Assembly (NCBI RefSeq): GCF_954871325.1
Contig: NC_088777.1
Location: forward strand, 5,991,366-6,055,365
Direction of reading: 5' to 3'
DNA length: 64,000 nucleotides
Source of the DNA: Gordionus sp. m RMFG-2023
Lineage: Eukaryota; Nematomorpha; Gordioida; Chordodea; Parachordodidae
In this document: in pieces, positions 28,176 through 60,625 of the stretch
How the letters are laid out: every line of letters starts with the position of its first letter
Position numbering within the stretch: position 1 is the first letter of the stretch
Notes under the pieces: generated by a model
The model's input: the letters and a program-made list of their open reading frames with translations, nothing else
The model's database searches: none
What the model was told of the DNA's origin: nothing
Translations under genes and position numbers: made by a program

Positions 28176-28189
28176 GGTTCAAATTAAAT

Positions 28190-36475: not shown

Positions 36476-37124
36476 GGGTCTATTTTAAAAAATGGTTGAT
36501 TAAGATTGTAGCCAAAATAATATATAAGATTAGAGATAGAGGTCAAATCTTTCTTTTTTTTTCTTCCTTCTATACGCAAAATCTCCAGGCTTACATAATA
36601 TTGGCTACTAATCAACATACCTTATAATGTAATAAATTGGTCCATTAAAGAAATAGGTATAAATATTAGTTAATTTTTTTCGATATTACACATTTAGTAA
36701 ATAAAATTGAGATTTTTGTAATTTTAAATATGAAGAAATAAATAATAATACCAACATTCAAAATGACTTCTATCTAATCATCCTTATATTTTTATACTAA
36801 GTAATTTATAATAAATTGCAACTGTAATAAATACGCGCCGAATTGTCTGTGCAACCATATATGAGTTCTAACTTTACGGTGACTGAATAGGGGGAAATAT
36901 TCAATTATTATAATATTTATAATAAACATATACATGTCTGTTTTCCATATTGATTAAAAACAGAAATTATAAGTCGAATTTCTATTTCATAATCATCAGT
37001 ATATACCGAAAACAATTATTTATTATTTGATATTCGAGATTTTATTTGTTAATTCAAAATTATTTGCCAATATTTGTGATTGGATAAGGTATGATATAAA
37101 ACTCATTATTAACAGTACTTTGTT

Positions 37125-37195
37125 AACTAAGAGGGTATCACCTGACTCACCCTGTGATTTCCTTAATACAATACATTCGAATCCCTTTCCCTCCA
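37125..37195 (+). ncRNA. tRNA-like sequence (SINE fragment)
   Basis: TTAACTAAGAGGGTATCACC resembles an A-box arm and CATTCGAATCCC resembles a B box about 50 bases later. No complete cloverleaf can be drawn, so it is a remnant at best. Confidence 0.35.
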
Positions 37196-37624
37196 AATAT
37201 CTTTTTTTAAAAAAAAACTTAAATATTATAAAAATATATTCTATATTCCTTTATATTGAATTTGAAGTTTATTTGAATAAAATTTACTAGGTTTACATAA
37301 AATGTTTAATACCTTAATTGAACAAATATTACAAAATATTGGCTACATTGAATAACAAAAGGTCAAATAATACATGAGGTTGTAGTTCATAAAAATAATT
37401 AAGATGTAGCTAGGGTTAATTAAATAATACCATTGTTTTGATCATTTCAATTTTATTGTAGACAAGTTCATATGTAATAAATTTATTATAGACGGGTTCA
37501 TATGAAATAAGTATATAATACAACAATATCTTTTAAGAGAAAATTTTTGGCAATTCAAATATTTTATTAAAACTTATATTGAAATTATTTTATTGAAATT
37601 TAAATTAACTTATTTTCGCTAAAG

Positions 37625-40600
37625 ATGTTTAATGGTATCTTCTTAATCGTAGTTATTCTGGCTTTCATAGGACTATCACAAGGTATAATATAAATTTCAA
37701 TAAAATTATTTATACTCTTCATGCAAGCATTATATTGCTAAGACATATTTAAGATTATTTAAAGTGTACTAATATAAGTTTCCTATTTTTATTTACATTT
37801 TAACATATCATAAATTTTAAAATAATTTTTTGAATTGGTATTTGCATCAAAAAATTTAATATTTTTCCAAATTAAAAAAAAGAAAATATTGCAAAATTAA
37901 GATTTATAAAGAAATTAGTTTAAAATATTATAACTTTCATAGATTTACTATGAAATCAGATTTTTCAATTTTATAACTCGTTAGAAGATAGATATAATTG
38001 CTTTAGTTTAAATGTGTTTCTTATTAATACGATTATAAATATAAAAAATTAAATAATTATGGAGTATTTTGTCCTTACTTTACATTTTCACTAATTTCCT
38101 TCATTTTTTTCTTAGAAAATTTAATATTCTTTATCATATTTTCCCTTGCGATATTATCTTGATTTTATTATAATCTTTTTCAATTTATAAATAAAGAGGA
38201 CCTTGGTAAGAATACATTGCATATTGTTATTTTTATATAAAATAAATTTATATTTTATGAATTTAATCTTAATTTTTTTTGGTTGTATGGTGTGTTAATT
38301 TTTTTTCTTCTTATAATAATACTAAAAGTCTTTAGCAAATTTTCTTAATTAAATTTATATACAAAGAAATAAAATTTTAATTATATTTATCATTTTATTC
38401 TAATATAATTATAATAATATCTATCATTTTATCACAGTTGATGCTTCGACTTTAACCACAGCCACCACCATAACCGGAGGACCTAATCATTCTGGTATAT
38501 TATTATATGCATAAATTAAAAGTTAACCCAATTTTATAATTATTAGTCGACATTTGACATTTTAAAGTGAGTAGCCCTTTGTTCGGTCTGCAGATAGTGA
38601 CAAGTGACAATAAACTTACTTAAACATCCACATGATCTAAGAAGTTGTAGAACAGGCCCCTGTCAGATTACATGGATATCCAAAGATAGCTGATAATTTT
38701 TTGTTTTGTTTTAAAATTTAAAAACCTCATGTCAAAGTTGTCGAGAGAGGTGGTGACCACAAACAAAAAAAACGTTATATTAAGAGGTATATTTTTCTTA
38801 GATTTTCAGCCTATCTAAGGTAACTTTGGTGTTTGATCTGGTGAATATCACGATAAAGAGAGGGTCTCATGCAATACCCTTTTGAGTTAATACATGTCTT
38901 TGTCTTCCGATACATTAAGAACATCAAGTTTAGTTAATCTGAATCGCGAAAGGTATTAAATACACTGTAGTATATAATTACATATTCATAGTTACAATTT
39001 GGAATAGTATTAAGTCATGATAGAAGTGATTTGGAGAAATTTTTTAAAAAAAATGTAATATATAAAATATTTTAAAAAATTGGCATTTCAGGATTATTAA
39101 AATGACAAAAATAATTATAAATATTTCTTGAAAAATATAAATCACGATATTTTTGAATGAAAATTTTTATTTTTTGATTAAATCTTTTCTTTTCTTTGGA
39201 TCTTTTTTTGTTAGTGAATCATTTTCTCATTTTATTTAGCCTCCCTTTTTTGATCGAATCTTTTTCTTTTATTATTGACACTTGAAAACCTTACAATTTT
39301 TTTTTCTTTTTAAGCTTTGAAAACTAAGGTTCCAAGTTCTAATCTTGATTTGAAAATAATCTTCAAGATTTTCCATGATGATTGATGAGCAAATATCGAT
39401 AAAGATGATTTACCGAGCTTAGAATTGCCCACCCTAGTCATGAGAGGCTTGAGCAGCCGGGTAGTAGGATATTTGTCCGTTCAGCAAAAATCGATTATAC
39501 TTAAAAAACCTTGCAATTAAAATAACTAAATTAAAATATTGTTTATTTTTGATAGCATTGTAATAAATTCTTAATTTTTACTTGTTTGAAATCTGCCCAG
39601 TAGCCCTTAATTTATATATTAATTCAAATAAATTTTGAAACAATATATTTTTGGAGAAGCCAATCTATAACTTAATATACTAATAAATTAAAAAAATAAA
39701 TAAACACCTGCGTATCAATGAACTTTAAAGAATTACAAATCTTTTTTTTGAATATTACCAAATATTTATAAACAATTATTTTAACTATACAGTATCTCTC
39801 TTATATTACTTTTAAGGGAAGGTGATCAGAAAATGAACCAAATGTAATTAATACATTTAAAAAATTATAATAATAGTACCTATTCGAACCTTCCCAAATA
39901 TGCTTTTAATTCTAACTCCAATGTCTTTTAACATTTAATAGTATCGATTCTCTTATGATTACCAACGATAATAAGCTTATGAATTAGCTTCTGTATTAAA
40001 TGCCACAGAACTAAATTACAGTTATATTGAATGTGAGAATCTTGGTATCATCTTAATGGTAATCACTTTACAATAATTATTGACCATAAATAACTCATTC
40101 TTTGCCATATAAAAGATTAACAAAAATGCAATTAATATTAATAGTAATAATTACTAGCAAATTATGACTATGAGTTATCATTTAAAGGAACTAAAAAACA
40201 TAGAAATTGGGATATACTTATCTGATTTATAATTGATGGCAAACCATCTGCATGGGAAGAATTAGATATTAGTTTTATATTACTAAAGGCTCCACAATTC
40301 TTAAAGATATAAAATACCAAACGTAAAACAACCTAATATTATCGAAATTATCACGTAATTTAACAAGTGGTTGGCCTATATTAGAAGAAAATCTTAAATT
40401 TTTTTTCAACTAAGTGTGGAGCTCATAATGGAAGCTGAATGTATATTATGAATAAATAAAATTTCTTACTTGCAATTTCGGAAACCAACTATTAATGCTA
40501 TATTATTCCCAAATCACAACTACTCTTTCTTTATGGAATTAAAAACCATATAATATTATATCCCATTTAAAAATTTTTAATTTAAATGTACCTTTTAACC

Positions 40601-43600
40601 GCCATTTTAAAATTTTCTATCATTTTTCTTTCTTTCTAATTTTCACTTTTTCCCACCAATTTTAAGTAATTTTTGAGTTTTTAACACCTATTTATGAGAA
40701 TTATATCATATTTAACTTGGTTTTTATTCGTTTTCATCTAATTTTTATACTTCTTCCCACTCAATTATTTTATATTATATATTTATAAAATAAGTTCTCC
40801 ATTTTTTCGTTTACTTAAAATTTCCCTATAGATTTTGCGTATTTCATGTTATTAAGTCATCTTTTTCCCTTGTCAACTCTTATCTTTCACATCAAAACAT
40901 TTCTTTTAAATCAAAATTTATATTTTTTGAAAATGTACCATCCTAAGTAGGCGATAATAAATAGCAATGAATAATCAATCATAATAGTATATATTTTGTG
41001 ATAACGTCTATATCAGTAAAAAATAACTATCTTTGAACATATAATATAAAATATATGCTTATTTTTATATTTATAGAAGCAAAATTAAACATTAAAGGTA
41101 TAAACGTATTTATTTTGAAATATTTTACAAAAAAAATTATTCCAAGTAGACAACCATTATGAATGTGTTAATAATTCATTCTATTTCCAAGTCATATATC
41201 AAGATCGAAATAAATCTTGATAGAAACATATTCTATATGCTTTGTTCCTATTATTAATTAAAACTAAAATATCTTCTTATTATAATTAAGAAAAAACTTA
41301 GGCGCTTCTAATGTAGCTCAGCTATGATTTATAATGAAAACACGTTTTATTAAAAATCCTGATAGATTGTTAGATAAATCGCAACTTTTATATAATAATA
41401 ATTATCATTCTAATATAATAGAAAATGGAAACGGGCTCCCCGTGATAGTTTAAAAGATCGATTTCTTGGAACAGACTAATAAAAGTTTAGTACTGCCTAC
41501 ATCCAAACACAAATTATAGAACCGAAGCCATCTAAAAATTATTTAGTCAAATATTAATATAATATAGTTTTGTGATAATATATAACATTGATTTATTCCC
41601 AAAAGATAAATTGAATATAAAAAACAACTAAATTTTTAATAATAAATATATATTTATACACATATTAAATATAATTAATATATTTTCTTGTTAGAAATTT
41701 AGATAGATTGAAATGGAAATAATTTATTATATATTATATTAAAAAATTTTTAAAGTAAATCTTTATTAAATTTTAAAAAATAAATAAAATAACATAACAT
41801 ATAAAACTATAATAAAATGTTAGAAATCATTTAAACAATTAAAGTATGATAAATATAAATACTAAATTAAATTTGAAAAAAAAAACATATATAAAGGGAG
41901 GAAAAAGCAAAAAAAATTATTCATTGAGATCCGAGAATACTAAGTTAATGGCCTAGTAACACGACAATTTGAGTTTATTGTAACATTTTAAAAGAGGATC
42001 CATGATTCCCAGTAGTGTTGTTAAAAAGTCGAGTTCATCCGACTCAGAGTCTCAAGTCGTTAGTCAAATATGTCGACTACAAACTCAAGCCGTGAACTCG
42101 AGTTATGAACTCAAGTCGAGGACGAATATTTTATGAACTTGAGTCGTCAAATTGAGTCGACTAGAGGACGAATATTTCAGATTTATTATTATTAATTAAG
42201 ATATTTTTTGTATATTGGTAGAAATAATTATTGGAATAAAGTGATAATCTATAAAGTCTTCTTGTACTTTCTAATTTTTGACATTTCGGCAATAATTTTA
42301 AGCAATTAAAAAAATATTAATAATGTCTTCGATTTTCGTTAAAAATTATAAAATATAAAGGAAATAGAACTAAGCAATTTAATAACTGATACTAAAAAGC
42401 TTCTCAAGCAACAAAAAATTTATCTAATTCACCCTCTTATAAAAGAATTTGTCTAAAATTTTGATAAAATTTGCCTGATTTATTATATAATATTATGAGT
42501 TATAATCTAAAGGAACTAAAAAACTAGCAATTCAGATATGCTATCCTGATTTATAATTGACGGCTAACAATCTGCATGGGAAAAATAAGATATTAATTTT
42601 ATAGTGTTAAGGCTCCACTATTCTCCTAGATATAAGAACCCAATCGTAAAACAACCTAATATTATGAAATTATCATGTTACTTAACAATTGTTTAGCATA
42701 TATTAGATAAAAATTTCGAACTTTTTTTCAGCTACGAATGGAATGGATGAATATATATTATGACTAAATAAAATTATACACTTGCAATTTCAGGAAAGAA
42801 TACTATATTATCTCCAAATAATAATTACTTTTTCTTCTTGGAATTAAAAACTATATAATAATATATACCCATTTATAACTTTTTAATCTAATTTTCCCTT
42901 TTTTTGCCCCCATTTTAAAATTATCTATCTATATATTTTCTTTCTATATATTTATTCTGATTTTCCCAAGAAATTTTAAGTATTTTGTGATTTTTTTAAT
43001 CCTATATTTGAGAATTATATAATTTTTAACTTAGTTTTTATTCTTTTTTATCTAATTTTTACACCTTAGCTTTACTCTTGTATCTTTCACATCACAATAT
43101 TTTATTTATATTTTTTCAAAATGTACCAACCTAAGTAGGCGACAATAAATATCAATAAAAACAATTAATCAATCAAAAATAGGATGGATTTTGGGTTAAC
43201 TATAATTTATCCAAAAAGGATATAACTATCTTTCAACACGTAATATATTATATATGCATGTTTTCTATTTCTAGATGCAAAATTACACCCTAAAGGTATG
43301 AAATATAATTATTTTGTAATAAAAAAAAATTATTCCAAGTACAGAACTATTAAAAATATTCTAAATAATTTATATTTTCATTCTATGATTCTAAGTCATA
43401 CATCTAGATCTAGACTTATTCTATATGCTTTGTTCCATTTTTAATTAGAATTAATATCTAATATAATTAAGGAATTTAGAGGCTTTTAATGTAAAGTAGC
43501 TCAGCTGCGATTTATAATGATAAAAGCCATATTTAAATAAAATAAAACCTTAGGTGGGGGCCGTAACTAAAAATATTATTTTATTATGTCCTGTCTTCTT

Positions 43601-46600
43601 GGAACAAACCGTTTAAAAGATCGATTTTTTGGAACGGTCTTAACTCATGCTTTAGTGCTGCATATGTCCTAACACAAAATATAGAACCGTAGGTCTCTAA
43701 AAAAATATTTCTTCAAATATTAAACTAATATAGTTTTGTGAAATTATATAACATTGTATTTTACCAAAAAGATAAATTGAACATTATAAATATCGTTAAT
43801 TCCTTTTATTTAAACAAAACGTATTTATTAATAAGAATTGTACACATAAAAAAAACTAAAAGTAAAAATTATATTTTTTCTAAAGTTTATATAATAAAAT
43901 TTGTCAGATTTGAATTGTTCTGTATTACAAAAAATATAAGTTAAAAGCTAAATATTCAAATATACATTCTACAAATCTAAGTTAAACAAAAAAAATAAGA
44001 ATAATATTACAAGGTAAATTGAATATCTTTATTTTGATTTATATAACAGAATACAATAATTAACTAAATTATTAATAATAAATATAAATTAATACATTTT
44101 CTTACTATAGAATGAAATGGAAATTATTTATTATATATTATATTTAAAAAATTTTTAAAGTAAAAACTTTAAATTATAAAAATAACATAACATAAAACTA
44201 TATTAAAATGAAAGTAAGAAATCATATAAAAGATGATAAATATAAAGACTATAATAAATTTAAAAAAAACATATGAAGGGAGAAAAAAGCAAAAAGAGCC
44301 ACTCACTGAGATCCGAGTAAAATAATTTAGTTGCCTAGGAACACTACAATTTGAGTTTATCATAAAATTTTAAAAGAGGATCCATGATTCCCATTTATTT
44401 GAGGTATTTACTTTACCTAAAATCTTTTAAAAATGCCTAGGAACCAATTAGTAGAAATAATTATCGGAATAACGTGATAATCTATAAAGTCTTATACTTT
44501 ATAATTTTTAACATTTAGGCGATTTTTTTTATGTTATTAAAAAATATTAATAATCTCTTCGATTTTCGTCAAAACTTTTAAACTATAAAGTAAATAGAAC
44601 TAAGCACGCAATTTAATAACTGATACTAAAAAGCTTCAAGCAACAATAAATTTATCTAATTTACCCTTTTAAATTATAAAAGAATTTGTCTAAAATTTTG
44701 ATAAAATTTGCCTTATTTAATATATAATTTGATTTTCTTTTTAGAGTTAGAGAAAGACATGCTTTCGAATGCATTATAAAACAGCTCAATTTTCAGGGAG
44801 AGAACTGGGTCCTGATGGTACACCTCCAAGACCTTTTCGGACAGAGTTTTCCCATTCTATATAATGGAACACTTGTTTTTATACTTTAAAACATAGGAAA
44901 TAAATTAAAAATGTTCTTGTCCTTTAGAACATTTAATTTTATTTAATTAAGAACCTTTATATTACCAGTTTTCTTGATTTATTTTTTATTTTAGATATAA
45001 TTATCCAACAGATAAGTAAATTTTTTTTCTTACATAATTATAATCTAACATAATCATGCATAGTTTAACATGATTTTCCACAGATTTTGTAACATTTATT
45101 TATTCTAATTTGACAACCCATATTAAATAAAAGGTTTTGATAAAAATAAGAATTATTCTAAATATGATCTTTTCTCTATGTATAAATTTTTAACTATAAT
45201 CTTTTTTCGAAATAATTTCATTTTTTTAATCCTACTTTTCGAGGAGGAGTTTTTATACATTAATTTATTTTAATATGTTGTCTGTTGGCAATTTGTTTTA
45301 AAATAAATCAATACATTTATTTAATAAAAAAGTAATATATTTAATTGCATACTATTTGACATGTCTGATCAAAATAACCATGTTTTAATAACGGAATTTG
45401 AATAATTGATATTATAAAAATATTAATAATCTTATAATCGTTTTTTGTTCCTAACTTTATATCCTCATGTAATCTGCCAATTTAATCGAAATGTTTTTTT
45501 TGCTTATTTTAAGCTTTTTTAGAGTTGTAAAATACAGTTTTAAAAAATTTTTCACTTTATTAGATTCCTAACTAAATTATGATTTTTATTCTTTTTTGTA
45601 TCCTAAAAGTAATGCAATATTTTATTTTGTGTTAAATTTTTTCCATTTGTAATCGATATTCATACTAATTTCCCCCAATACTCGCGCTTCATAGACATCT
45701 GCTATAACAATAGCACTTTCCTCATCTTTAATGGTAGCGTTATATACTCTGAAGAGGGAGTACAACAGGGCGACCTCCTCGGCCCTATTCTTTTCTGCTT
45801 AGATATCCATAATATGATGAAAGATCTTAAATTTGATTTTGATCTCGACCTAAACCTATGGTACCTTGATGATGGCACCCTTTGCGATAATTCACATTAA
45901 ATAAGCAAAGCCCTTAACTACCTTGAAAGAGTATGCTCTAAAATAGATTTGGAATTAAATAAAACTAAAACTGAAATTTGCTTCCTCAACCCCGAGATTC
46001 CCTTAGATTTATTTAAAGAATACACTATTATCGAAAAAGAAAATATCCAACTTTTGGGCTCCCCATTACTTAATAATAATATATCCAAAAAAATTATCTA
46101 TAAAACTTTGAGATGTAAAAATTGGAAAAGTTCATCAACCACATTCTATCGCACCAGCTTTTTTACTTATTAAAAAAGTGTTTTTATCTTCCCAAAATCT
46201 CACATCTCTACTCATCCTCCTCATTCATCTCCTCAAACATTCAACACAATATTCGCTTAAAGACCTTTATAGAAAGGATCATCAACCTTTCATTATCAGA
46301 CTTTAATTGGCACCTAGTCCAATTACCCGCTAAACTGGGTGGTATCGACTTGATTCCCTTAGAACTACTTTCCCTTTCTCTATTTATATCAAATCGCTTA
46401 TCGCTCAATTCTGCGATCTCATCATTCATAACTCCTTATGATCTTCTTACAGCAGCAATAGAAAGATGGAATCTCCTAACCCCAGACGGTTATACATTTC
46501 CTACCGAAATCTCTAACAAATCTATCATCGAACCCCTAATAAAAAAATTACAAAATGGTCTTAACCCTACCAAAATAATCGATATACAACTATTAGAACA

Positions 46601-49600
46601 ACGATAAATACGGCTGGCATGAATGGCTCGAAGCACTTCCAAGCCAAACCTTAGATAATCTCTTATCCAATGACCAACTGAGAGTTACTATAGGCTTTAG
46701 ACTTGATCCTTGCTTAAACATTCACACTCTTGCTACCAATGCAGCCTAGCCGTTCAACCTAACGTCAGACATGGTCTAAACTGCACCCGCAGCCAAGGAC
46801 GTCATCTCCGTCATTAAGCATTTATAAAATTATACATAACGCTTTTAATAAGGCTATAATACCCAAAATCCTTGAACCTACCAACCTCTCATTACAAGAC
46901 GGATTCAGACCCGAGCTTAACTGCACCCCCTGGTCTAATGGGAAATCCCTTATTTGGGATGCAACCTGCGTATCATTCTTTCCTTTATCAATTAATACAA
47001 ACCCTCTTACTTGTAGGGAAAATAAAATAATTAATAAATATTCAAAATTAAATAACTTTATATTTCAGCTAATAGTCATTTCAACAACGGCAATTTTTCA
47101 TAGTCTACATATATTTTTTTAAAAACTTTATCACGAAAATTTTTTCGCATAACAAACGAAAATTGCGAATCCTTATTTCTTAAACAAAAATTCAATTGGA
47201 AATTTTTAAACACAAATATACTTGTTTTTTACGTACATTTTTATTATTAAATTAAGCTCTTTTTAGAACCTTCGATAATATTAATATGTATTTTTATTTA
47301 GTAATTTTATATATTTTTACATATTTTTATATAGTTGTTTTAATATTTTAGTGTTTTATCATTTTTTTTAAATATTATACCAATATCAATATCATCATAA
47401 TAAAATTTTAATGGATTTGATTAATAATTTCTTAAGAGAAACTTTAATTTACTTGAAATATCTCTCCGAGGTTTAATACTAACCTCGAGAGCCCTGATGA
47501 GATATATTCTCGCCCAAAAATGATTTTAAAGTTAAGATTAAAAAATAGCTTAAAGACCCTATCCTTGAATGTTGACCTGTTACTACACAGCTGATTATTC
47601 ATTTCCGAGCGTTATTACATAGAAAAATTAGGTAGAACAACAAAAATAAGAGAAAAGTTATTAGTCACCAAATAGAGGAAAATTTTTTAAAAAATCGGTA
47701 TAAATGCTTGCCAAATTTTATCATATTTTTTTTTAAAATGTAATTTATTCTTAAAATTAATTTAGGGAAAGAATTCGGTAAAATATTTGATTTCTTTTTA
47801 AATTCCAATAAAAATTAATGACCATAATATAAAAAAATAGGGTAATGCTGTTTTATTTTTTGTTTTTAAAATCATTAATTGAGCCCGTTGTTTTATAATT
47901 TAATAATCTGATTTTGCGCGAAATTCATATAAATTAATATAAATTAAGGTATCTTCAAAGGTTGGTCATAAAATTGTCTGAAATATTTTAGGGTGGATAT
48001 TCAACACATATTGAAATACATTTCCAGCAAAATCACATTTCTAAACTTAATAAAACGCTCTCAATTATAGATTTATAATGCAAAACATACTAAACATGTG
48101 GAGAAAATTTATTAAATTATCTTCTTCATACAAAACATATGATTGACGTATATATATATATATAAATATATATACAATGCCATTTATATCATGCCCACCC
48201 CTGTGCCAGGACATGCGGCTAAGATAAATTTTTTATTATAATTAATATAATATGCTATTTAAATATTGACCAAAATGGATCTAAAAATATATTTCAAAGG
48301 AATCTAAAAACGAAAATGTAATATACTTCATATATATAATAATGTAAATCATATAATTCGACAGCCAAAATATGGAAAAAATATTATAATTATAAATTTA
48401 TGAACTTTCACATTATTTATGATATTTCATATAATTATCTATTTTTCTAATAAAAAATTTTAAATAGTGAAAAATGTTAATCTATAATTTTTTTATCAGA
48501 ATAGTCAAATAATATATTTCCATTTGATTCATTCTTAATTTATAAATTATTTGTAATATATAAATTATTTTAAAACAGAATTTTTTTTTTTTGAATACCA
48601 TAATAATTTAATTAGAACAAGAATATATATGTGAAAAACTTCATGGTCCTTGGAATATCATTATATTTTTTAGGAAATTTTCTAGTCTTTAAAAATTGTA
48701 TTAATATATCCACTATACATTGCTATTTGCAAAAGAATATTTATTATTTGTTTAAAAAAAATTGAATCTCTGACCAAAAATAATATGAACCTACGTTTTT
48801 AATATAATGCTAATAATATGTTGATTTTAAATATTTTGTTTTATAACTTATCTCTATGACTTTCTTTGACTAATTAAAAATATAATTGAGATATTATACT
48901 AAATTTAACTGTCAAAGGTTATGCTTTACCGCTTTCGCTATAAATTTTTTTAAATAGTGTCTTACTATATTTTATTTATTTATTTAAAAATATATAATTA
49001 ATAAATCAAAACTAATAAATATTCTCATAACATTCTTTATGATAAAATTTATTTTTAATATTAAACAAATAAGAAACCCCATCCTCTTTCTTAAATTTAC
49101 CTAATAACATTTTAAGCTGGTTAAATATTTGCCCCTATAGACTTCATACCCATGTCATTTTTGTTAGAACTAGATTAAAAATGTTGACTTATAATGATTT
49201 AATTTGTCTTATTAAAAAGAAATCAAAATAGCTCCTCTAACAGTGGCGTAGCTAGGAATTTTCCTTAGAGGGGGTCCATACATATAAAAGCTGGGGGGCG
49301 TTTTGCTCGGCCTTCGGCCGGGTTTATCTTACAAATCATAACCATATCTTCGATAATATATAATAAATATATTTTTTTAAATGCATCAATAATATGTTAT
49401 TATACTTTAGTAGATTATTCTCAATGACTTTATAATAATACTATCCAGAATAATTTCAATAGTAATATAATATCCTTCCACAAACCAGAAAAATATAATT
49501 GATATAAACTCACTTTTAAGTCTTTTGAACTTATAATCTAAAAAAAATATTTGCTCTGGGAGCTGTCCAAACCCGAAAACCACCCCCGTAGCTACGTCAC

Positions 49601-52115
49601 TGTCCTCCAATATCATTATATTCATGATGATATTTTTATTATCGAGTAATTAAAAATGTTGCTAATATAATTCGATTTATGAAATAATCGATGTATTAAT
49701 TAGCAAATAATATAATATCGGTAATTTTAGTATCCACATTGTTTCCAAAATAAACAAATAATGGAATAATTTAAAAAAATGCAACCAATGATAATTATGG
49801 CTCTTAAACAATAATCTCATCAGGATTATTTGGCAGATTAAATAAATAGGAAAATTGTTATTTAAATAGTGCGTAATGCTTTTAATACAATTCTAGCATA
49901 AAAAAAAGTTAAATTTAAAATAATTGGATTTTGATTTAATTAATAAAAGAAATAAATAATATAATATTAAATTTTAGGTACAACACTTCCTAAAACACCA
50001 GGTATATTATTATCATTATTGATTTTAAAAACATGAAAATTATTTGTAATTCATCTATATTTAATTTATCCATGCAATATAATTATATTTATAAATTATA
50101 TGTATTATATATTAGATAGACAATAAAATTGAAAATTAAATGATTTCATTAATAATGTTGTCATCTATTAAATTGTGAACTAAAATTTTAGTAACCATTA
50201 CAATCAACGAAAGTCAACCCCAAGGTTTAAAACATTTTTAAAATTGATTAAGTAGTTATAAGTTTTATTTATTCAAAATCGGCTATATAATGTTATATTT
50301 AAATGATGTCAATCTTATATATTGTTAGATCAAAAGTTAATAATTAATAATTACATCAATAATGTAATCACTATATTAAATCGCAAACGAAAATTTTAGT
50401 AACCCCTACGATCAACGAAACTCAACCCCTAGGTTTATTTATTCATATTTATTAATTAATTTTAAAATAGTTAAAAATTATATTTATTCAAAATCGGCCA
50501 TATAATGTTTTTTTACTTATCAAAAAAGTTGATTATTATTCTATTTTTAATCATCACATGATTAATAAATGTTTTTTAGTAACCTCTACAATCAGAACTC
50601 CAACCCCAGGTTAATTTAAATTAAAATTTAAAAACTTTTTAAAATTTATTTGGTAATTATAATATATATTTTTTCAAGATTGTCCATATCATTTTATTAT
50701 ATGATGCCATTTATTGTTAGATCAAAAAAGTTGATAATTAAATAATTCCACCAATAATATAATTACTATTAAATCGCAAACAAAAATTTTAGTAACCACT
50801 ACGATCAGCGAAACTCAACCCCCAGGTTTATTTATATTTATTAATTTATTTTAAACATTTTTTAAAATTAATATAGTAGTTAATAATTATATTTATACAA
50901 AATAGGACATATAAAGTTATTTTTACATGATGTAATTTGTATTCTTGTTCTATCAAAGAGTTAACTATATCATTACTTATAAGGTTAGTTGATTAGTTAT
51001 ATTTATAAATTTTAGGGGATGTATCTAAATAATAATTTGTTATAGAACCCAATTGAAGCAAGGAGATTTAAAAAAATATTATTCAAATAAATATTTTAAG
51101 CATTTATTCTTACTATAAAATATAGATTATAAAAATTTATAACGGAAGAGTCAATTATGAATCATTAAAAATTCTCATAGATATAAAATAAATAAACCAA
51201 TCGTAAATTAAAAATAATAAAAAATTTTTAAAAAATAACTCGGTAATTATGATTCTAAAACTAATCTTACCAAAATTATATGGCAGATTAAATAAAAAGC
51301 GAAACTTATACTAAAAATTTTAAATGCAATGTCATTCTTTCACGATGCTATTCTTACAATTCTAATATAAAAAAGGAGTTGATTATAAAATAATTTGATT
51401 TATATATAATCATTAAATTAATAAATAATATAATATTAAAAATTTTAGATAAATAAATCTCAGAAGTTTACTCAATATAGTATATTGATAATAATTAAAG
51501 ATTCAGAAACATTAAGGGCTATTTATAAAAATATAATCTGGAGTTATATACAGTAATTTATAATTGGTTACAATTGGCTATATAGTCTTTTTTGATAATA
51601 TTTATAGTGTCAATAATCTTTCGCTATTTCATAGATTTCCCTAAAATATGTCAGTGTGATTATATGATGATGCAACTTATTCAAGAAATTAAATCAAAAA
51701 ATGGATCAATTTTAACCTTTCATCAAGAAGATAGCAAAAACCCTAATTCTTTAACAAGTATATTTTTATTATTTGCATTATAATTTATGTTTTAACATTT
51801 ACAAAATAATCATTTAAAAAAAATTGATATAATGATAAATAAATTTTTTTTAAAATTTATATATATTTATTATAAAGTAGGATAATTTATTATGATATAA
51901 AACATACAAGAGTTTTTAAATAATTCAAAATTAATTAATATTGCCTAATTTGTCAAATAAATTTAATTAAATATGGGCAGAATATTCTCCAATTAAAATT
52001 ATTATTAAAATATAAATTATTGAAGAATTTTAAAGCTGTCTAACTTCTTAAGTGTTATTCGCATAATAGTTTTTTTCACAACATCTAATTTATTTTAGGT
52101 AATGATATGACATAA
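37625..52115 (+). CDS. microexon gene for a small secreted protein (nine exons, 116 residues)
   Basis: Exon 1 37625-37682 encodes MFNGIFLIVVILAFIGLSQ, a clear signal peptide, donor CAAG|GTATAA. Then: 38197-38205 (9 nt, donor GTAAGA), 38438-38494 (57 nt, TATCACAG|, Thr-rich DASTLTTATTITGGPNHS), 41077-41097 (21 nt), 43275-43295 (21 nt), 44995-45015 (21 nt), 49978-50001 (24 nt, STTLPKTP), 51635-51757 (123 nt, FPKICQCDYMMMQL... with two Cys) and a stop exon 52099-52115. Every internal exon is a multiple of three and every junction is phase 1, so any exon can be skipped without loss of frame. Donors are mostly GTAT(A/G), and acceptors mostly T-rich ending (T/C)TAG or ATAG. The joined frame is open to TAA; AATAAA follows near 52135. 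This design (signal-peptide exon plus symmetric microexons) is that of the microexon genes of parasitic flatworms, whose products are secreted and vary by splicing. The protein itself matches nothing I know. The tiniest exon (9 nt) and the last exon are the least certain. Confidence 0.65.
38495..40162. other. intron of the microexon gene with unassigned islands
   Basis: Patches of normal complexity at about 38560-38960 and 39370-39480 are probably old repeats. No microexon with both splice signals and phase 1 was found, but exons under 20 nt could be missed. Confidence 0.35.
40163..42494 (+). repeat. microexon duplication unit 1
   Basis: About 2.3 kb repeated directly in tandem as unit 2. 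Shared landmarks: GAGTTATMATYTAAAGGAACT at the start, GTACCAWCCTAAGTAGGCGA, the 21-nt microexon (here 41077-41097, coding AKLNIK), GATCCATGATTCCCA, and TGATACTAAAAAGCTTC near the end. Identity falls well below that of the microexon in many intron parts, and small indels are frequent. The end of unit 1 joins directly to the start of unit 2 near 42494. An insertion of a TAGTGTTGT-end element at 42013 is private to this copy. Confidence 0.75.
42013..42175. mobile_element. repeat inserted in unit 1 (TAGTGTTGTTAAA end, GACTCAAGTCG words)
   Basis: The block starts TAGTGTTGTTAAAAAGTCG and is filled with palindromic words such as CGAGTTCATCCGACTC, CAAGTCGAG and GAGTCGACT. It is absent from the aligned places in units 2 and 3, where GATTCCCATTTATTTGA continues. 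The right terminal repeat was not found, so it is truncated on that side. Confidence 0.55.
42495..44740 (+). repeat. microexon duplication unit 2
   Basis: Second copy of the unit, with microexon 43275-43295 coding AKLHPK. Its similarity to unit 1 stops near 44740. Similarity to unit 3 instead continues on the right through the second 21-nt exon at 44995-45015, up to 45671, and again from 47414 to about 47520. Unit 2 plus this extension is therefore the fuller ancestral block. Confidence 0.75.
44745..44889 (+). CDS. exon-like open segment, unassigned
   Basis: An excellent acceptor (GATTTTCTTTTTAG|) opens a frame (phase 2) that reads ERHAFECIIKQLNFQ, ENWVLMVHLQDLFGQS, FPILYNGT and then stops at TAA. 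In unit 3 the aligned 48 bases (CAAGATCTTTCCGGACAGAG and flanks) have no indels and keep the frame, although the first half is deleted there. Phase 2 does not fit the phase-1 microexon chain, so it may be a piece of another duplicated gene carried in the unit. No family recognised. Confidence 0.3.
45672..47413 (+). pseudogene. non-LTR-like reverse-transcriptase element fragment inserted in unit 2
   Basis: Contains a reverse-transcriptase segment EEGVQQGDLLGPILFCL and the catalytic LWYLDDG block, then LELNKTKTEICFLN. Downstream are LVQLPAKLGGIDLIPLELLS and, near 46760-46980, a C-terminal block with HGLNCTRSQGRHLRH and a DGFRP...WSNGK-like signature. I know that block from invertebrate reverse-transcriptase proteins lacking LTRs; it may be a restriction-like endonuclease. 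The 5' part is missing and the copy is broken in several places. Edges come from comparison with unit 3, where the sequence runs uninterrupted from TTCTAATTT to AATTAATAC. Confidence 0.75.
47414..49232. other. intron of the microexon gene
   Basis: Starts with the tail of unit 2 (TATCTCTCCGAGGTTTAATA, matching unit 3 at about 58980). The rest is A/T-rich. Weak microexon-like candidates near 47623-47631 and 48636-48659 were not accepted. Confidence 0.35.
49241..49602. mobile_element. intact hAT-type MITE, CAGTGGCGTAGC family
   Basis: Ends CAGTGGCGTAGCTAGG and inverted CCGTAGCTACGTCACTG. Flanking 8-mers TCCTCTAA (49233-49240) and TCCTCCAA (49603-49610) differ at one base, which marks an 8-bp target duplication. 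It is 362 bp and has no coding capacity. Interior TTTTAAGTCTTTTGAACTTA and CCAAACCCGAAAACCACCC match the copy at 8.6-9.0 kb. The left end is shared with the element starting at 60626, which carries a transposase and is the likely source of mobility. Confidence 0.85.
50140..50990 (+). repeat. satellite-like tandem array B (about 200-bp units)
   Basis: Unit cores AGTAACCATTACAATCAACG (near 50190), AGTAACCCCTACGATCAACG (50398), AGTAACCTCTACAATCAGAA (50579) and AGTAACCACTACGATCAGCG (50782). Spacings are about 208, 181 and 203 bp. Same family as array A, with the same two unit types. It lies in the intron between the 24-nt and 123-nt exons of the microexon gene. Confidence 0.8.
51235..51480 (+). 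pseudogene. dead duplicate of the 24-nt microexon cassette
   Basis: The sequence from about 51235 aligns with 49790-50010: ATGGCAGATTAAATAAAAAG, then ACAATTCTAATATAAAAAAG, then AATAATATAATATTAAA...TTTTAG. The acceptor survives at about 51450, but the following bases (ATAAATAAATC) have a stop in phase 1 and the donor GGTATATT has become AGTATATT. The live copy uses GTACAACACTTCC...CCAG|GTATAT. The array B satellite lies between the two copies, so the whole block was probably duplicated around it. Confidence 0.6.
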
Positions 52116-54463
52116 AACCACTTGCTAAACAGCGAATAAAATTAATTAAAATGCAATAAGACATTTTTTAAAATATATTAACGGAATCATGTGGTCGAGT
52201 TCGATCTACTATATATCATCCCCCAAGGACAGAACCACAGAGTTGGCTTTAGAAAAAACTTGACCCTTACTGGATTCGAAATCAGAACTATCAGATTGCG
52301 ATATAAGTACTCAACCGTCTAGACCACAAACGCTATTCATAAACATCAATTTTTTATATATATAAGGATTACAACTTTATCTGATATTTTAATAAAACAA
52401 ACTTAACGATATGTATAATTGTTCAGTTATATTTTCCCTCAATTTATTCAATTTTTGCTTTTATTTTATGGTTGCTAGGGCGTTTTCGTTATTTTATGTA
52501 GCTTTTTCTATTTTAAAATTTTGTTTCAAGTTAGAAACAATAAATGAAAACCTTATGAATCACTCAATTGAACACTATCACCTTTGTTATAACCCTGATT
52601 CCTTCAAAAAAAATCGCTAGGTTCTTATTTCTTATTAATCAGAGTTTTAATTTGGTACCAAACTTTGGAATTCATTAATTTTTTTAATAATTATAGTGTT
52701 TCGATGTTTGTAATAAACGTCTTCTTAGCTTGTAAATTTAGAATTTGATATATTATAAAAATCTCACATAATATGAGGACCTATAAAGAAAGACCAAAGT
52801 AATTCAGTAAAGCTTTAATAACTCTATTCAGATTCCTCATGATCAATTCTAGTTGATCTTTATTAGTGGAACTGCTCGGGCTATTATAATTAAGATAGGC
52901 TGGATGAATAGTGAAAAATTTTGTTTCTTATTAACATTTAATTGATCATGTCTCTCCCAAATATTAATAAATTTTAAATACTTTTATATTATCATATAAT
53001 ACAGGTATTTTAATTATAAATATCAAATAAATCACAAAATCTGACTAAAATTTGAGGATATAATTCAAATATATAACAGATAAACATGGCTTGAGCTAAC
53101 TATTTTTAATCCTAGCAGTATTATTATAAAATAATTTAATATGAAATTTTATTTTAGTAAAGTTAAACATTACACATGGAAAGCCTCAAAATTTAGGTAT
53201 ATCATTATATTTATTGATAAATATTAACTAAATGTGTTTTATTCAAGAAAATTTACCCACTGCTATTATTGTGCCTGTTAACATTAAACCTAAAAATTTT
53301 CTACTTTAAATAATTTGATTTAATATTTGATTTCCAAGATACTATCATATTATATATGTGAAATCTTTCACATATATATTATATTATTACATTTAACAAA
53401 ATTATATAGTAGTTTAAATTTTCAAAATACAAATCATTTAAATGAAAAGATAAATTATATATATATTTTCCAATAAGAGTAAAATATGTTACAGTTAACT
53501 AAGATTTCATATAGAACTCTTCAGATATTTTAAAATTTAAAATAATATATACTCTGATAAAGTTACACACAGATAAACAAAATTGTTTATTTTTAAATAC
53601 TTAAAACAGGGTGAAAAATTACTAAAATACCAAAAATTTTAAATTATTTATAATATTTCTGGATCTATGATGACAAATAAAAATCTATAAATCAAAATTC
53701 TCCATATTTACAATTATTCGAGAATTACTCTTTTACTATAAAGTTATGCCTCTCAGTCCCCTCGAATCGAATTTGTTTCTTCAATTTTAATAAAGATGCT
53801 GCAATACTAGAAAAATTAGCGATAAATCAATGGTGATAATTAATCAAGTCCAGAAAATATTGCAACTAATTCCAATAAAATTCTCTCAATGTTCTTACAA
53901 TATCGGTCTTATATATTTCCCTTTTTCCACAAAAACATTTCTTAAAATTAAAATTTCCTCTCAAACCCTTATCTTGTATACTTGTCAACACCTCAACTAA
54001 TCTTGCATTATGCTCCCTTCTACTCCTCCCCACAATCAACACATCAGAATTAGATACGGACTTTCTGGCCGGATATGTTTAATTTCATCGCTATTTTTTT
54101 TATGTTAGACAAGTACATTTGATAACTTTTATTTATAAATTCGGCAAGATTGAACTTGAATAAAATATTTAGAATATTTTTGGAGCATTTATATTTAGGG
54201 GGCGGGGGAAGTTGGTTAAACAAGCCTCTTTTTTCCTGCCTATCTTCGAAATCAATAAAATCTTCAATTTACACTTTTAAAAAAATAATTAATAAACTTA
54301 ACTTCTAAAATATAAAAAAACTTACTTAATTTTAATTTCAAAATGTTTAATTTCTTAAAAAAAAATTATCTAAGTAAATAACTAAAATAATAATAATTAA
54401 TAAACAACTTTAAAAATATAAAAAGAACTCATCATGGGACTTTGCCATTTTTATCACAAATTA
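52116..54463. other. region downstream of the last microexon
   Basis: Contains the tRNA-like sequence below. The plus-strand frame 52411-52620 has a hydrophobic, signal-like start (MYNCSVIFSLNLFNFCFYF) and two later cysteines but no splice context, and I do not call it. The rest is A/T-rich. Confidence 0.35.
52255..52335 (-). ncRNA. tRNA-like sequence (SINE head or tRNA pseudogene)
   Basis: Minus strand: GCGTTTGTGGTCTAGACGGT followed by TGAG gives a convincing A-box/D-arm, and GATTTCGAATCC gives a B box about 40 bases on. The acceptor stem does not pair. Downstream sequence (to about 52190, with CTCTGTGGTTCTG) may be the body of a tRNA-derived SINE. Confidence 0.5.
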
Positions 54464-54471
54464 TAAATTTA

Positions 54472-55539
54472 TAGTGTTGTAAACGAACGCGTTCAAAATG
54501 AACGCGTTCGTGAACGAAGTTCGTTTTCTTGAAAAAAGGTGATGAACGGCTTTCCTTTTTTTTTGACGAACTTTGAACGTGAACGCGTTCCTTTTCTTTG
54601 ATGAACGCGTTCAATTTTACGTTCGTTCAATTTTAAAAACACTTTTTATTTTTATTTATTTGAAAAATTAATATTCCGCATTTTTTAACAAAAAATCTTA
54701 TATTTTTATTTATTTGAAAAATTAATATTTAATCCAATTTTTTAACAAAAAAGTCTTATATTTTTTAATCAGCTGTTTTTACTTTTTCCTCTTTCATATT
54801 GCAATTAACGTACCTTAACGTGCTACTGCTAGAGAAGATAAGATTAAAGTTTATTAATTTGAATATTTTATATTTTAATTTAATAGATTAGCATTTGCAT
54901 GGATATAAATATTTCATCATCAGATTCTGAAAATTAAAATTCAATATTAGATGAATTAGAATTACTATGGCCCAAATATCAAAAATATTTCACTATTTTA
55001 AAATCAAAAGGTAATTCAATAGTTACCAAATGTAAAATGTGTCCAAAAAGTATTATATCATTGTCAACATCTTCAAGCTCCAATTTAAAAAGACATCTGA
55101 TTGTAACATTAATTATTTTATATTATATAATATGTATAACTATATAGCCAGTTAATAATTTATTTTAATTGTTCTAAGTAAAAATAATTACAGTTAATTA
55201 TAATAATAAGGCATTTTAATATTAGTATTTAAGAAAAAAATTTTATAAATTTATTTTTTTATCGCTCTATTATATTGTATTTATAATTATATTATCAAAA
55301 TAAAACTATTATTTTTTTATCATGGCTAATATATTGTGTTGAAAAATATAAGGCATTTATTTATATTAAATTAAATTTAAAAAAAAATTTATCATAAAAT
55401 TTTGAACGCATGAACGCGTTCACGAACTTGAACGCATTCCTTTTTTTGAATTTGAACGTGAACGTGAACGCGTTCGATTTTTGTCAATGAACGTTGAACG
55501 CGAACGCGTTCGATTTTTTTAAAAATGTTTACAGCACTA
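54472..55539 (+). mobile_element. hAT element remnant with BED finger and perfect 8-bp target duplication
   Basis: TAAATTTA flanks both sides (54464-54471 and 55540-55547). Terminal repeats are TAGTGTTGTAAAC and inverted GTTTACAGCACTA. Subterminal regions of about 170 and 140 bp are filled with the palindrome GAACGCGTTC and half-sites GAACG/CGTTC. A remnant open frame at 54899-55105 (one stop inside) encodes a BED-type zinc finger: KYFTILKSKG, CKMCPK and SSNLKRHL. The DDE domain is missing, so this is an internally deleted copy. Its end sequence is the same as that of the fold-back MITEs, which it or a full-length relative probably mobilised. Confidence 0.85.
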
Positions 55540-55547
55540 TAAATTTA

Positions 55548-56084
55548 CAATATAATTTCTTTTTATTAATTAAACATGCATGACGTTTAATCTTTATTTT
55601 TTTGTCCATATTTAATTACAATATGTATTAAAATAAAATTTTACTTTGTTTGCCCCCTTATATTTAAAAATAATTATATTACTCGTTTTACTTCACTGTA
55701 ATGGGAAAGAAATTTGTTTATAACAAAATTATACATGTTAAAAGAAAGTAAAATAAAAATTAATTTCTATATTTAAATAGATTCAGGCCATGCCGGTAAA
55801 TTTTTTTAAAAAAAATTTGATTTTAATCTAAAGAACCCCAAATTTAAACAAATATTTAAATGGTAAGAAAATGAGATTAAAAGCTTTAATTATTAATTTA
55901 GAATGTATAATATTTAATTTAAGATTAGTAAATGAAATTCATTTTTTCTTACTTTTTATATATCCGAGCCCCGGGACTAATCCATAGATGGGTTTGAACT
56001 CCGGGTAGGCCTGAGCACATAAAAGAGTCGTAAATTTTACTACCAAGTAAATTAACTATTTTCTAGTTCACACAATGATATTTT
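55548..56084. other. A/T-rich spacer
   Basis: A short GC-richer patch at about 55965-56030 has a weak B-box-like word (GGGTTTGAACTCC) but no A box. No gene seen. Confidence 0.3.
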
Positions 56085-56900
56085 TACTCAATGCATTCAT
56101 TTTACCATTTGATCAAAAGATGAATATTTTAAATAATTTAATTTGTAATGTAATCACCATATATCAATTCACAAATAATTTAATGTGATAACGAAAATTA
56201 AATTTAAGTTAATAAATCATGCCCTCCACCTCAAAATATATTATTATGTTTTTTGATTATGCAAATTTAGATTTATTTGGTATTCATCTTAATAAATTTA
56301 AGAAGAAACTAATCAAAATAGTTCACAAAATGTTATGTTTACATATATATTTATTTTGCTGTTTGATCAAAAGATATATTAAATAACTCAATTTATAATG
56401 AAATCATAATTACCAAATAATAACTATGATAACGAAAATTAAATCACCTTCAAGTATATTATTATTTTCTTTATTCTCAAAATTGTTTTAAATTATTTGG
56501 TCAATTTATCATTCAATATTTTATTGTTGCACGATGCATTGTTATATCAATTGTGATTTTTTAAATGATTTAATTTATAATTTAATTTGAAAATAATATT
56601 AAATGAAAATATTATTGAGAATTTCCTTTCTTCAACTTACAGATATGTGATTATGTTTACTGATATATTTCAAAAATGTTTAATATTATCTGGTCTTAAA
56701 CAAAATTCGTTTAAAATGAATGTTTTAATTCCCTAAAATGTAATATTGAATCAAAAATATTAATTTTTGAATAATTCGAAATATAATATAATCACGATAC
56801 ATTAATTCATGCAGTAAATAGTAGTAAACACAACATTTGCTGATATTTTGTTATTAAATAAATTCAAAACTTTTTATAATACTTTGGTATCTGTTTTAAG
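56085..56900 (+). repeat. satellite-like tandem array C, distant relative of arrays A and B
   Basis: About four worn units. Landmarks TTTGATCAAAAGAT, AATAATTTAATTTRTAATG, AATCACNATAT and GATAACGAAAATTAAA recur near 56107, 56360, 56540 and 56750. They follow the order of GTTAGATCAAAAAGTT, AAATAATTCCA, GTAATCACTATAT and CAAACAAAAATTTTAGTAAC in arrays A and B, but the CTCAACCCCCAGG core is largely lost. Confidence 0.45.
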
Positions 56901-57230
56901 CATAGGATGTTTTTAGCGCGAATAGAATGGTATTATACATTTATAAATTAAGTTTCGCATGTTTGCTTTAAAAAAATTTTACAACTGATCTTGGTTATTT
57001 TATGTTTTTTAGGTCATCTTTCTCTCTTATGATTACTTTTGTTCTTTCACATCTCATTGTATTTTTTTTTTTGAAAATGTACCAGCCCTAATAGGCGTTA
57101 GGGGATAGCAATGAAAACAAATAACCAATCAAAATAAGATAAAATTTAGGCCAGCTTCTATTTATCCAATAAATATAGAACTTTCTCTCAACACATAATA
57201 TATAATATATGCATATTTTTGTATTTTTAG

Positions 57231-57251
57231 ATACAAAATTACACCCTAAAG
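57231..57251 (+). CDS. 21-nt microexon, third copy (TKLHPK)
   Basis: GTATTTTTAG|ATACAAAATTACACCCTAAAG|GTATAT. In phase 1 it encodes (D)TKLHPK(G), against (D)AKLHPK at 43275 and (E)AKLNIK at 41077. The splice sites are intact. It lies beyond the stop exon at 52099, so it is either an alternative exon of longer transcripts or part of a second, incomplete gene. Confidence 0.5.
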
Positions 57252-58495
57252 GTATATAACGTAATAATTTTGTAATTTTACAAAAATAATTATTCCAAGT
57301 ATAGAACTAACAGAACCATTAAGAATGCTTTAAATAATTTTTATTTTATGTTTCCAGGTCATATATCTATATCGAAATAAATCTTGATAGAGACTTATTC
57401 TAAAGGCTTTGTTCCTATTATTAATTAGAAGCTTTAATAACTTTTTATTATAATTAAGGAAAAATTTAGGCGCTTCTAAGGTAGCTAAGCTACGATTTAT
57501 AATGATGAAATCTATATTTATATAAAATAAAACTTTAGTAGAGGGAAGGGGGTATAATTAAAAATATAATTTTATTTAAAATCCTATAGTTTAACGAAAG
57601 ATAACTTAATTAATAGGATAAAGGATGGGAACGAGCTTTCCATACCTGTAGTATCTTGGGACGGACTTGAGACCCATTTCTTGGAATGGACATGTTTTAA
57701 CGCAAGTTATATTACTGCAGACTTTTAACTCAAATTATAAGAATGAAAACGCCTAAAGGCAATAATTTCTTCAAATATTAAACTAATATAGTTTTGTTAT
57801 AATATATAACATTATATTTTACCAAAAAGATAAAATAAATATAATAAACAACTAAATTGATTATAATTAATATATTTGAAATGTTTTACATAGAGTGAAA
57901 AGGAAATAATTATTATATTAAAAAAAATTTTAATGATGAAAAAAGCAAAAAAGAGCCACTCATTAAGTTCCGAGAAAATTAAGTTACTTGCTTAGGAACA
58001 CAACAATTTAAGTTTATAGTAACATTTAAACCATGATTCCCATTAATTTGAAGAATTTTTTACCTAAAATCTTTTAAAGTTGCCTAGGAATCAATTAGTA
58101 GAAATAAATATTGGGAGAAAATGAAAATCTTAAACTTTCTAATTTATGAAATTTCGGTGATATCTTTATGTAATAAAAAAATATTAATAATCTTTTCGAT
58201 TTTACTTTAAACTTTTTAAATATAAAGGAAATACAATTAAGCATTTTCAAACTCGTAGTACTGAACTGAATGAATTAATTTATCAAATTAAATTTAACTT
58301 TATTTTAGAAATAAAAACATAAGACAGTACACTTCCAAGATCTTTCCGGACAGAGATTTCCTATTGTATATTATGGAACATCTGTTTTTTACTTTAAAAT
58401 ATAGAAAAAAAACTAAAAATGTTTTTTTCAGAATATTTAACTTTACTTAATTAAGAACCTTTATATTAACAGTTTTTTTTATTTATTTTTTTTAG

Positions 58496-58516
58496 ATATA
58501 ATTATCCAACAAATAA
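58496..58516 (+). CDS. 21-nt microexon, second copy (IIIQQI)
   Basis: TTTTTTTTAG|ATATAATTATCCAACAAATAA|GTAAAT. It differs from the exon at 44995-45015 by one synonymous change (CAG to CAA). Phase 1 on both sides. Confidence 0.5.
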
Positions 58517-59050
58517 GTAAATTTTATATTTTTCTTACATAATTATAATCTAACATAATCAGACATATTTTAATGTGATTTTGAACAGATTTTGAAGCAT
58601 TTATTTATTCTACTTTAACACCTAAATTAAATAAAAGGTTTTGAGAAAAGTAGAATCATTCTAAATATAATCCTTTCGCTTTGTAGAAATTTTTGATTTT
58701 AATCTTTTTTGCAAAAATTATAATTTTTTGGTTATTACCTTTTGGGGAAGAGTTTTTATTTTTATTCTATATTTTATGCAGTTGAAAAATACAATTTTTT
58801 TAAAAAATGTGTTTTTTTCACTTTCTTATCTTCCTACTAAATTTGTATTTTTATTCTTTTTTGATCCTAATGATAGAAAAGATAACATAAAATCGCAATA
58901 TTTTATTTTTCCATTTGTAATCCTTATTCATTCTAATTTAATTAATACTTTTCTTAATAAGAATAATTTTCATAAACTATCTCTCCGAAATGTAATATTA
59001 ATCGTCGAGAACCCAGATGAGATATAAGACCAGTCCCAAAATAATTTATA

Positions 59051-59625
59051 CATATAATTACGCAAAATTCTTAAGATATCGATGTAAAATTTTCAATAAC
59101 AATTTGTACGAAAGGAATTTTTTTTGTTTCACGCAATATTGTGAGTTAACCCTTTAATGCACGACAGAACTATAAACGGTATATTTTTTTTTAAAAAAAA
59201 ATTATTTAATTTTAATTAGCCCTTAATAAACTAAAAAATAAAATAATTTTAAACCGTAAAAAAATTTTTTTAGTGTGAATAATTAATTGCACAATACATG
59301 TAAAAAGTATTATATTTTTTAAAATTCAAACTTATTGCAAAAGAAATAAAATTTTATTATTGGATAAATAATATAATAAAACATATTTCATGAAATTATT
59401 GAAAACAATCATTTTTAGAATTAAAACTAATGAAACACACCATGATTCAAATCATTTTAGTAACCAATTTGAATTCAGGGTTCTTGTACCGCGATCTTGT
59501 AATATATTATGTCCAATGAGCTATTAAAATATGTAGTTCTTTTTGCGGAAAAAGACATGTATGTTCCTTATAACATTTTTCTCTATATTTGTCAACAATC
59601 GATACTCATATTATAAGGCTAGAGT
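59051..59625. other. A/T-rich spacer
   Basis: No terminal exon for the unit 3 microexons could be found here. Confidence 0.3.
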
Positions 59626-60564: not shown

Positions 60565-60625
60565 TAATCGATGCTTGTTTTGAGTTGGTCATCTTTAATA
60601 GCAGACCATTCAAGTATCATATAGT

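Follow-up and report, generated by a model that had tools for sequence, protein, structure and literature searches.

In the hairworm Gordionus sp. m RMFG-2023 (Nematomorpha), a parasite of arthropods, the locus described here appears to belong to a set of about ten related genes that code for predicted secreted proteins built from tiny exons. It is located in a stretch of 64,000 nucleotides (C3:5991366-6055365), which is referred to as the window. Judged by the comparative support, which is good, the gene family is real; the locus is not of flatworm origin, and the first-pass annotation had modelled it incompletely. The secreted microexon design found in the hairworm is probably a new and convergent variant.

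Each readable gene seems to start with a signal-peptide-like exon, followed by many tiny phase-1 exons, many of them Thr/Pro-rich, and to bear a single conserved exon of larger size in which a C-x-C-D motif and a glycosylation sequon occur. We consider it quite likely that these genes form a family of about ten for secreted proteins in Gordionus, in which modules are duplicated, lost or skipped in frame and which would yield a glycosylated product for the host or the outer surface.

Origin and exon model of the locus

The assembly comprises 287.06 Mb in 267 contigs, with five contigs of 31.8-93.7 Mb; five chromosomes are reported for Gordionus sp. m RMFG-2023 (PMC11371463). The genome is that of Gordionus, and a flatworm origin is contradicted by the mitochondrial sequences. 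An aphid or phylloxera origin, considered in view of the five chromosomes and the low GC content, is rejected on the same grounds. A COX1 copy on a nuclear contig (L009; 447 residues) is 100% identical to COX1 of Gordionus alpestris and reads with TGA as Trp, AGA as Ser and AAA as Lys, the latter at a position which we take to be a conserved Lys. The flatworm mitochondrial code, which differs in the reading of AAA, is therefore not in use. For G. alpestris, RNA-seq has been described (PMC10380579).

COX1-like matches were found across many contigs (L009-L014; 48 matches, at least 41 of them above the family cut-off). Many are almost intact when read with the mitochondrial code, which suggests very many mitochondrial insertions. 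Close to the L009 copy, no more than 1.3 kb away, there are perfect inverted repeats (100, 47 and 38 nt); repeats of this kind have been reported in hairworm mitochondrial genes (PMC6649704).

All nine plus-strand exons proposed earlier (58, 9, 57, 21, 21, 21, 24, 123 and 17 nt) are present in the sequence. Their coordinates were recovered from lengths and borders; only the lengths had been summarised before. Joined, they give 351 nt, coding for 116 residues and a stop. Each exon except the first is preceded by AG, each except the last is followed by GT, and every junction is in phase 1. For the three 21-nt exons, 13 open AG..GT segments of this length were available to choose from between 38495 and 52090.

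The overall design proposed for the gene, a signal-peptide-like first exon followed by symmetric phase-1 microexons, was retained, while the exon set turned out to be incomplete: at least five well-bordered microexons had been missed, four of them at 50192-50825 and one at 53158-53196 (Table 1). The working model, a prediction, consists of 15 exons and spans 37625-53196 (C3:6028990-6044561). The lengths of 14 of these are multiples of three, the exception being exon 1, which ends in phase 1 after 58 nt, and 14 of the 15 have at most 81 nt, the 123-nt exon being longer. In the resulting 178-residue model, which holds five N-glycosylation sequons and two Cys, the middle part contains 21% Thr and 12% Pro. 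As judged by sequence, exon 1 encodes a hydrophobic N-terminus in four genes. A candidate of 24-28 nt near 51500 was dropped, as was an upstream extension of the 123-nt exon that some paralogs would allow; the borders were not kept.

Table 1. Exons and exon candidates at the locus (window positions) and genomic loci of the 123-nt exon (contig positions)
Feature	Position	Strand	Copies and support
Exon 1, 58 nt, ATG and signal-peptide-like hydrophobic segment, ends in phase 1	37625..37682	+	Counterparts in relatives; strong
Exon 2, 9-nt microexon, phase 1	38197..38205	+	AG/GT in 5/5 genes; 9 nt in four, 12 nt in one; strong
Exon 3, 57-nt Thr-rich exon, phase 1	38438..38494	+	8 copies in 5 genes, AG/GT 8/8, all open in phase 1; strong
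21-nt microexon, module copy 1	41077..41097	+	Also present at 43275 and 57231 and three times in the L020 gene; moderate
21-nt microexon, module copy 2, duplicate of 41077-41097	43275..43295	+	Moderate
21-nt microexon candidate from the first-pass annotation	44797..44817	+	Kept in close duplicate only
Extra 21-nt microexon candidate	44995..45015	+	AG/GT in 5/5 copies; flanks conserved to equal degree
Extra 12-nt microexon candidate	47766..47777	+	AG/GT and frame in four or more copies aligned from the L020 region
24-nt microexon from the first-pass annotation	49978..50001	+	Kept in close duplicate only
33-nt Thr/Pro-rich microexon, array copy 1	50192..50224	+	Absent from the earlier model
33-nt microexon, array copy 2	50400..50432	+	Absent from the earlier model
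30-nt microexon, array copy 3	50580..50609	+	Absent from the earlier model
33-nt microexon, array copy 4	50793..50825	+	Absent from the earlier model
123-nt family-defining exon, C-x-C-D motif and N-G-S sequon	51635..51757	+	11 loci; strong
17-nt terminal exon with stop from the first-pass annotation, doubtful	52099..52115	+	Close duplicate only
39-nt phase-1 exon downstream of the earlier stop	53158..53196	+	AG/GT, length and frame at 9/11 family loci
Further 21-nt microexon copy in duplicated module (candidate)	57231..57251	+	Similarity
Further copy of the 44995 microexon, in downstream module with the 57231 copy (candidate)	58496..58516	+	Similarity
123-nt exon loci on C3 (ten)	near 6043002, 6129556, 6191340, 6456910, 6472218, 6502078, 6566270, 6622780, 51548594, 51594556		
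123-nt exon locus on C1 (one, L017)	near 51634775		Fragment without AG/GT borders

Several other features were observed in the window. A homeodomain exon, apparently of an ordinary gene, lies on the minus strand at 10162-10656. Also on the minus strand, at 21551-21859, a 102-residue open frame contains eight Cys and matches nothing in Pfam. Remains of a hAT-type transposase (Dimer_Tnp_hAT, DUF4371) occupy the minus strand at 61355-63740; for 62637-63740 the nearest database protein is LOC135926663, which comes from this assembly and is 96% identical across 90% of the query.

Copies of the exons in related genes

The translated 123-nt exon matched 11 genomic places, counting its own, and the same 11 came up when two further members served as queries. 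It is stop-free at all of them and bordered by AG and GT at 10, the fragment on C1 being the exception. Pairwise identity, determined in 20-base steps over nine members, with L016 (the close duplicate) and the fragment on C1 excluded, was 0.79-0.86 within the exon and 0.02-0.76 outside, dropping at both borders. The steps directly adjoining the exon reached 0.51-0.73; the upstream stretch 51437-51536 was also fairly high (0.66-0.76). In the window's copy, 17 of 40 residues are invariant over the same nine aligned copies, including C5, C7, D8 and the sequon N22-G-S. The only indel in this alignment has a length of 15 nt. By a strict pattern, three of the 11 loci have a 33-nt exon with clean borders some 190-225 bases upstream of the 123-nt exon; it does not occur in the window's gene.

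One close relative is an inverted duplicate at C3 6563.4-6584.6 kb, with 84-97% identity in blocks over 300 bases. Window 37000-54471 corresponds to C3:6563440-6584568 (reverse), about 0.5 Mb apart and interrupted by insertions. In this duplicate, borders and frame were kept in 16 of 16 exons tested, with exon 1 being 61 nt long (in-frame +3). For the exons at 44797, 49978 and 52099, this one close duplicate is the only place where they were kept. Counterparts of exon 1 with 61 nt and a GT donor were found in the duplicate (6583973), the L020 gene (6099939) and the L024 gene (51543356).

Two mobile-element features were seen in the span compared with the duplicate. A broken non-LTR retrotransposon (RVT_1 match below cut-off) lies inside an intron at 45613-47000, with at least 40 scored genomic copies of 46600-47000; it is largely present in the duplicate and is therefore probably older than the duplication. 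Further downstream, AACGCGTTC-rich repeats at 54481-54640 and 55410-55530 flank about 1 kb (54472-55537) that looks like a mobile insertion and is absent from the duplicate.

In the L020 gene (C3 6099.9-6132.3 kb), a signal-peptide-like exon and the 9-nt exon are present once each, whereas the 57-nt exon and the block bearing the 21-nt exons each occur three times. The L021 gene, at C3 6184-6192.5 kb, contains the 9-nt exon and two copies of the Thr-rich exon, of 48 and 57 nt; its exon 1 was looked for and not found. Searches with the short peptides of the 7-residue exons (tblastn) returned mostly noise; of the hits, the exon-1 counterpart at 6099939 alone was kept.

The most informative relative is the compact L024 gene, located 45 Mb away at C3 51543356-51549969. 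It has exons of 61, 12, 24, 45, 138 and 39 nt, each of them bordered by AG/GT and free of stops in phase 1. A blastn comparison of window 37000-60000 with this gene gave eight matches. Five fall on the first two exons, part of exon 3, the 123-nt exon and a 39-nt exon, one pairs the window's 39-nt exon with the 24-nt exon of the compact relative, and two (38673-38725, 51926-52049) are on no recognised exon. Across the genes, exon lengths differ in threes (58/61, 9/12, 45/48/57, 123/138); exon 3 has 57 nt in six copies and 48 and 45 nt in the others.

Inside the window, too, modules have been copied: the stretch 40.2-42.5 kb corresponds to 42.5-44.7 kb, and 56.9-58.2 kb corresponds to both. The duplicated blocks at 40169-45256 and 56930-58939, which bear the 21-nt exons, are about 68-86% identical. 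The 21-nt exons at 41077 and 43275 are represented by six copies in such modules, with AG in 6/6 and GT in 5/6, and their conservation is no higher than that of the flanks.

The first-pass annotation had argued that chance would rarely keep eight consecutive phase-1 joins open. This is not right, as the interval 37683-52115 is rich in open phase-1 segments. It contains 170 such AG..GT segments of 6-60 nt, and 100 dinucleotide shuffles gave a mean of 135 (sd 12.8, maximum 174). Phases 0 and 2 of the same interval and size range gave 151 and 178 and antisense phase 1 gave 211. Taken alone, the open phase-1 chain is weak evidence, and related copies decide. Through the paralog comparison, exons 1, 2, 3 and 8 are placed beyond chance with strong support and the 21-nt exons at 41077 and 43275 with moderate support.

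A chain of open AG..GT segments strung together by chance in AT-rich intergenic DNA, with no gene present, would accommodate the abundance of such segments on both strands and the three of nine exons that have no support beyond the close duplicate. We regard it as very unlikely, since at least five exons share borders, frame and order among paralogs and conservation falls at the borders of the 123-nt exon. Candidates with conserved borders on the sense strand numbered 28 in phase 1 versus 21 and 24 in phases 0 and 2 (nested ones included), compared with 4-7 on the antisense strand. When two or more aligned copies were required, there were 14 versus 5 and 8. Phase 1 is thus not clearly favoured, and the counts are hard to interpret because the candidates nest.

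Coding character, repeat arrays and 3' end

Substitutions in the 123-nt exon are spread evenly over codon positions 1, 2 and 3 (18, 19 and 19 events in eight copies), with no excess at the third position, and pN/pS over nine copies was 0.63. These tests do not indicate ordinary purifying selection. When changes were re-placed at random, frame retention was significant for the 123-nt exon only (P 0.021, 8 copies); the values for the other exons were 0.84 (57 nt, 5 copies), 0.52 (39 nt, 3 copies) and 0.24 (33 nt, 17 copies).

The missing third-position excess would also be expected if the conserved blocks were spliced but non-coding, or if the cluster consisted mostly of decaying gene copies, and the fragment without borders at L017 and the donor lost in one copy of the 21-nt module point the same way. 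Nevertheless, the 123-nt exon is open at every one of its 11 loci, whereas the other two frames of nine copies hold 31 and 51 stops, and indels within exons are multiples of three while the flanking introns also show other lengths. Non-coding or decaying copies are an unlikely explanation.

The Thr/Pro-rich microexons of 33, 33, 30 and 33 nt form a tandem array just upstream of the 123-nt exon. Among 38 copies of this unit found by similarity, phase 1 is stop-free in 37, phase 2 in 34 and phase 0 in 5. AG precedes 29 and GT follows 32 of them, and both are present at 25. The copies were chosen at 23 or more matching bases out of 33, from the DNA examined; as they were selected by likeness to the exon, the exon's own conservation was not counted as evidence.

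Window 50150-50870 had 156 matches, and among 150 listed (overlapping) C5 holds 124. Tandem arrays with units of about 210 bases are located on C5 at 5.54-5.55, 6.93-6.94, 7.17-7.19 and 8.00-8.04 Mb (L046, L047). In 2 kb of a C5 array, all nine copies found by similarity are open in phase 1 and seven of the nine have both AG and GT; a 15-nt segment of the microexon kind was seen twice at L047. C5 alone probably carries over a hundred intron-plus-33-nt-exon units, and its arrays could be giant microexon genes or satellites derived from such genes. More copies of the 33-nt array occur in the window upstream of exon 1 on the same strand, at 28182-28943, and are possibly the tail of another family member.

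The 17-nt stop exon had been taken as the end of the gene. The 39-nt exon further downstream is found with AG/GT, full length and open frame at nine of the 11 loci (at seven of them within 1.5 kb downstream, in addition to the duplicate and the L020 gene), while the 17-nt exon has a counterpart in the close duplicate only; the gene therefore probably continues beyond 52115. A short alternative end at 52115 may exist. The 39-nt exon was not seen in the C1 fragment, nor within the 1.5 kb examined at L019. A last exon was not found when 53201-64000 was compared with the regions downstream in the duplicate and in the L020 and L021 genes.

Proposed role and relation to known systems

The internal exons are symmetric and share one phase, so that an intron-plus-exon module can be duplicated, lost or skipped with the frame intact. 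Duplication of modules is shown within the family by the sequence copies; skipping of some microexons by alternative splicing is presumed. The hydrophobic N-terminus would direct secretion, the Thr/Pro-rich middle part may act as a glycosylated stalk, and the product would be a secreted, glycosylated, mucin-like protein of variable length. As the likeliest role, we infer a use at the arthropod host or the parasite surface.

The same secreted microexon family might instead serve a structural or reproductive purpose, for instance in cuticle, egg string or gland mucin, and not act on the host. Thr/Pro-rich repeats that can be glycosylated fit mucins and egg or cuticle coats. On the other side, the even spread of substitutions over codon positions and the local expansion to about ten copies are in line with a fast-evolving interface, without being proof of it. 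A structural or reproductive use is thus a possibility to be taken seriously, albeit on the doubtful side.

To our knowledge, the means by which hairworms alter their hosts are little understood at the molecular level. Returning to the interface reading, we tentatively suggest, with confidence somewhat short of even, that hairworms independently evolved a microexon system for secreted-protein diversity. Signal-peptide genes, together with tandem intron-plus-33-nt-exon arrays, would be spliced into variable mucin-like proteins for the host interface, apparently missed by annotation. If confirmed by transcripts, this would offer a defined set of rapidly changing secreted proteins for tests in hairworms and would suggest that standard annotation can miss microexon genes.

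The earlier statement that the predicted protein resembles none known was borne out, as protein, Pfam and PDB searches gave no recognisable relatives. The 178-residue model had no protein match at E values up to 10 (46 candidates; database proteins of 98-311 residues). The database searched includes the annotated proteins of this Gordionus assembly, none of which matched, and within this size range the gene therefore seems to be missing from the annotation; annotated proteins of greater or smaller length fell outside the search. In Pfam-A nothing exceeded the curated cut-off; the best hit of the joined model, to a poxvirus protein (15.8 bits versus a cut-off of 25 bits), was taken as a chance match on Thr/Pro-rich letters, and one of the nine copies of the 123-nt exon gave one match (E 0.087). 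The PDB search returned nothing better than E 1.6. A literature search, whose wordings were not exhaustive, found no paper on hairworm microexons.

In mucins with repeat domains, Thr/Pro-rich repeats are suited to O-glycosylation, and those of the hairworm proteins are likewise. Mucins carry the tandem repeat inside one exon, whereas each hairworm repeat is an exon of its own of 30-33 nt.

The microexon genes (MEGs) of schistosomes are described as a gene family in a parasite, difficult for automatic annotation, with a signal peptide, mostly short exons (3-81 or 6-81 bp, multiples of three) and long introns (PMC10526429, PMC5825161). Similarly, the hairworm coding sequence, as predicted, consists mostly of short symmetric exons, and the genes form a family of a parasite with long introns and a hydrophobic start that may be a signal peptide, a family apparently missed by annotation. 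In contrast to the MEGs, the family belongs to another phylum and no sequence similarity was found, the 123-nt exon exceeds the MEG size range, and the Thr-rich exons stand in tandem intron-exon arrays.

The bicycle genes of aphids have about 17 exons, many of them microexons, and nearly all internal exons start at codon position 2. They carry signal sequences and CYC motifs (usually two), are fast-evolving and number 476 in one aphid (PMC9168663). In the hairworm genes, too, internal exons begin at codon position 2. They lack the CYC motif; a C-[QHE]-C-D motif occurs once, and the 178-residue model holds two Cys. Bicycle genes belong to plant-feeding insects, while the hairworm is a parasite of arthropods with about ten such genes.

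True homology to flatworm MEGs or aphid bicycle genes, by descent or by transfer, would account for the common design of a signal peptide with many tiny symmetric exons and for the codon position shared with the bicycle genes (PMC9168663). It is nonetheless extremely improbable in view of the results of the protein, Pfam and PDB searches, the missing CYC motif and the low Cys content. If transcripts confirm the hairworm genes, secreted microexon families would have arisen separately in flukes, aphids and hairworms. The microexon design would then be a repeated solution in three lineages living on or in other organisms, and not an oddity of flukes.
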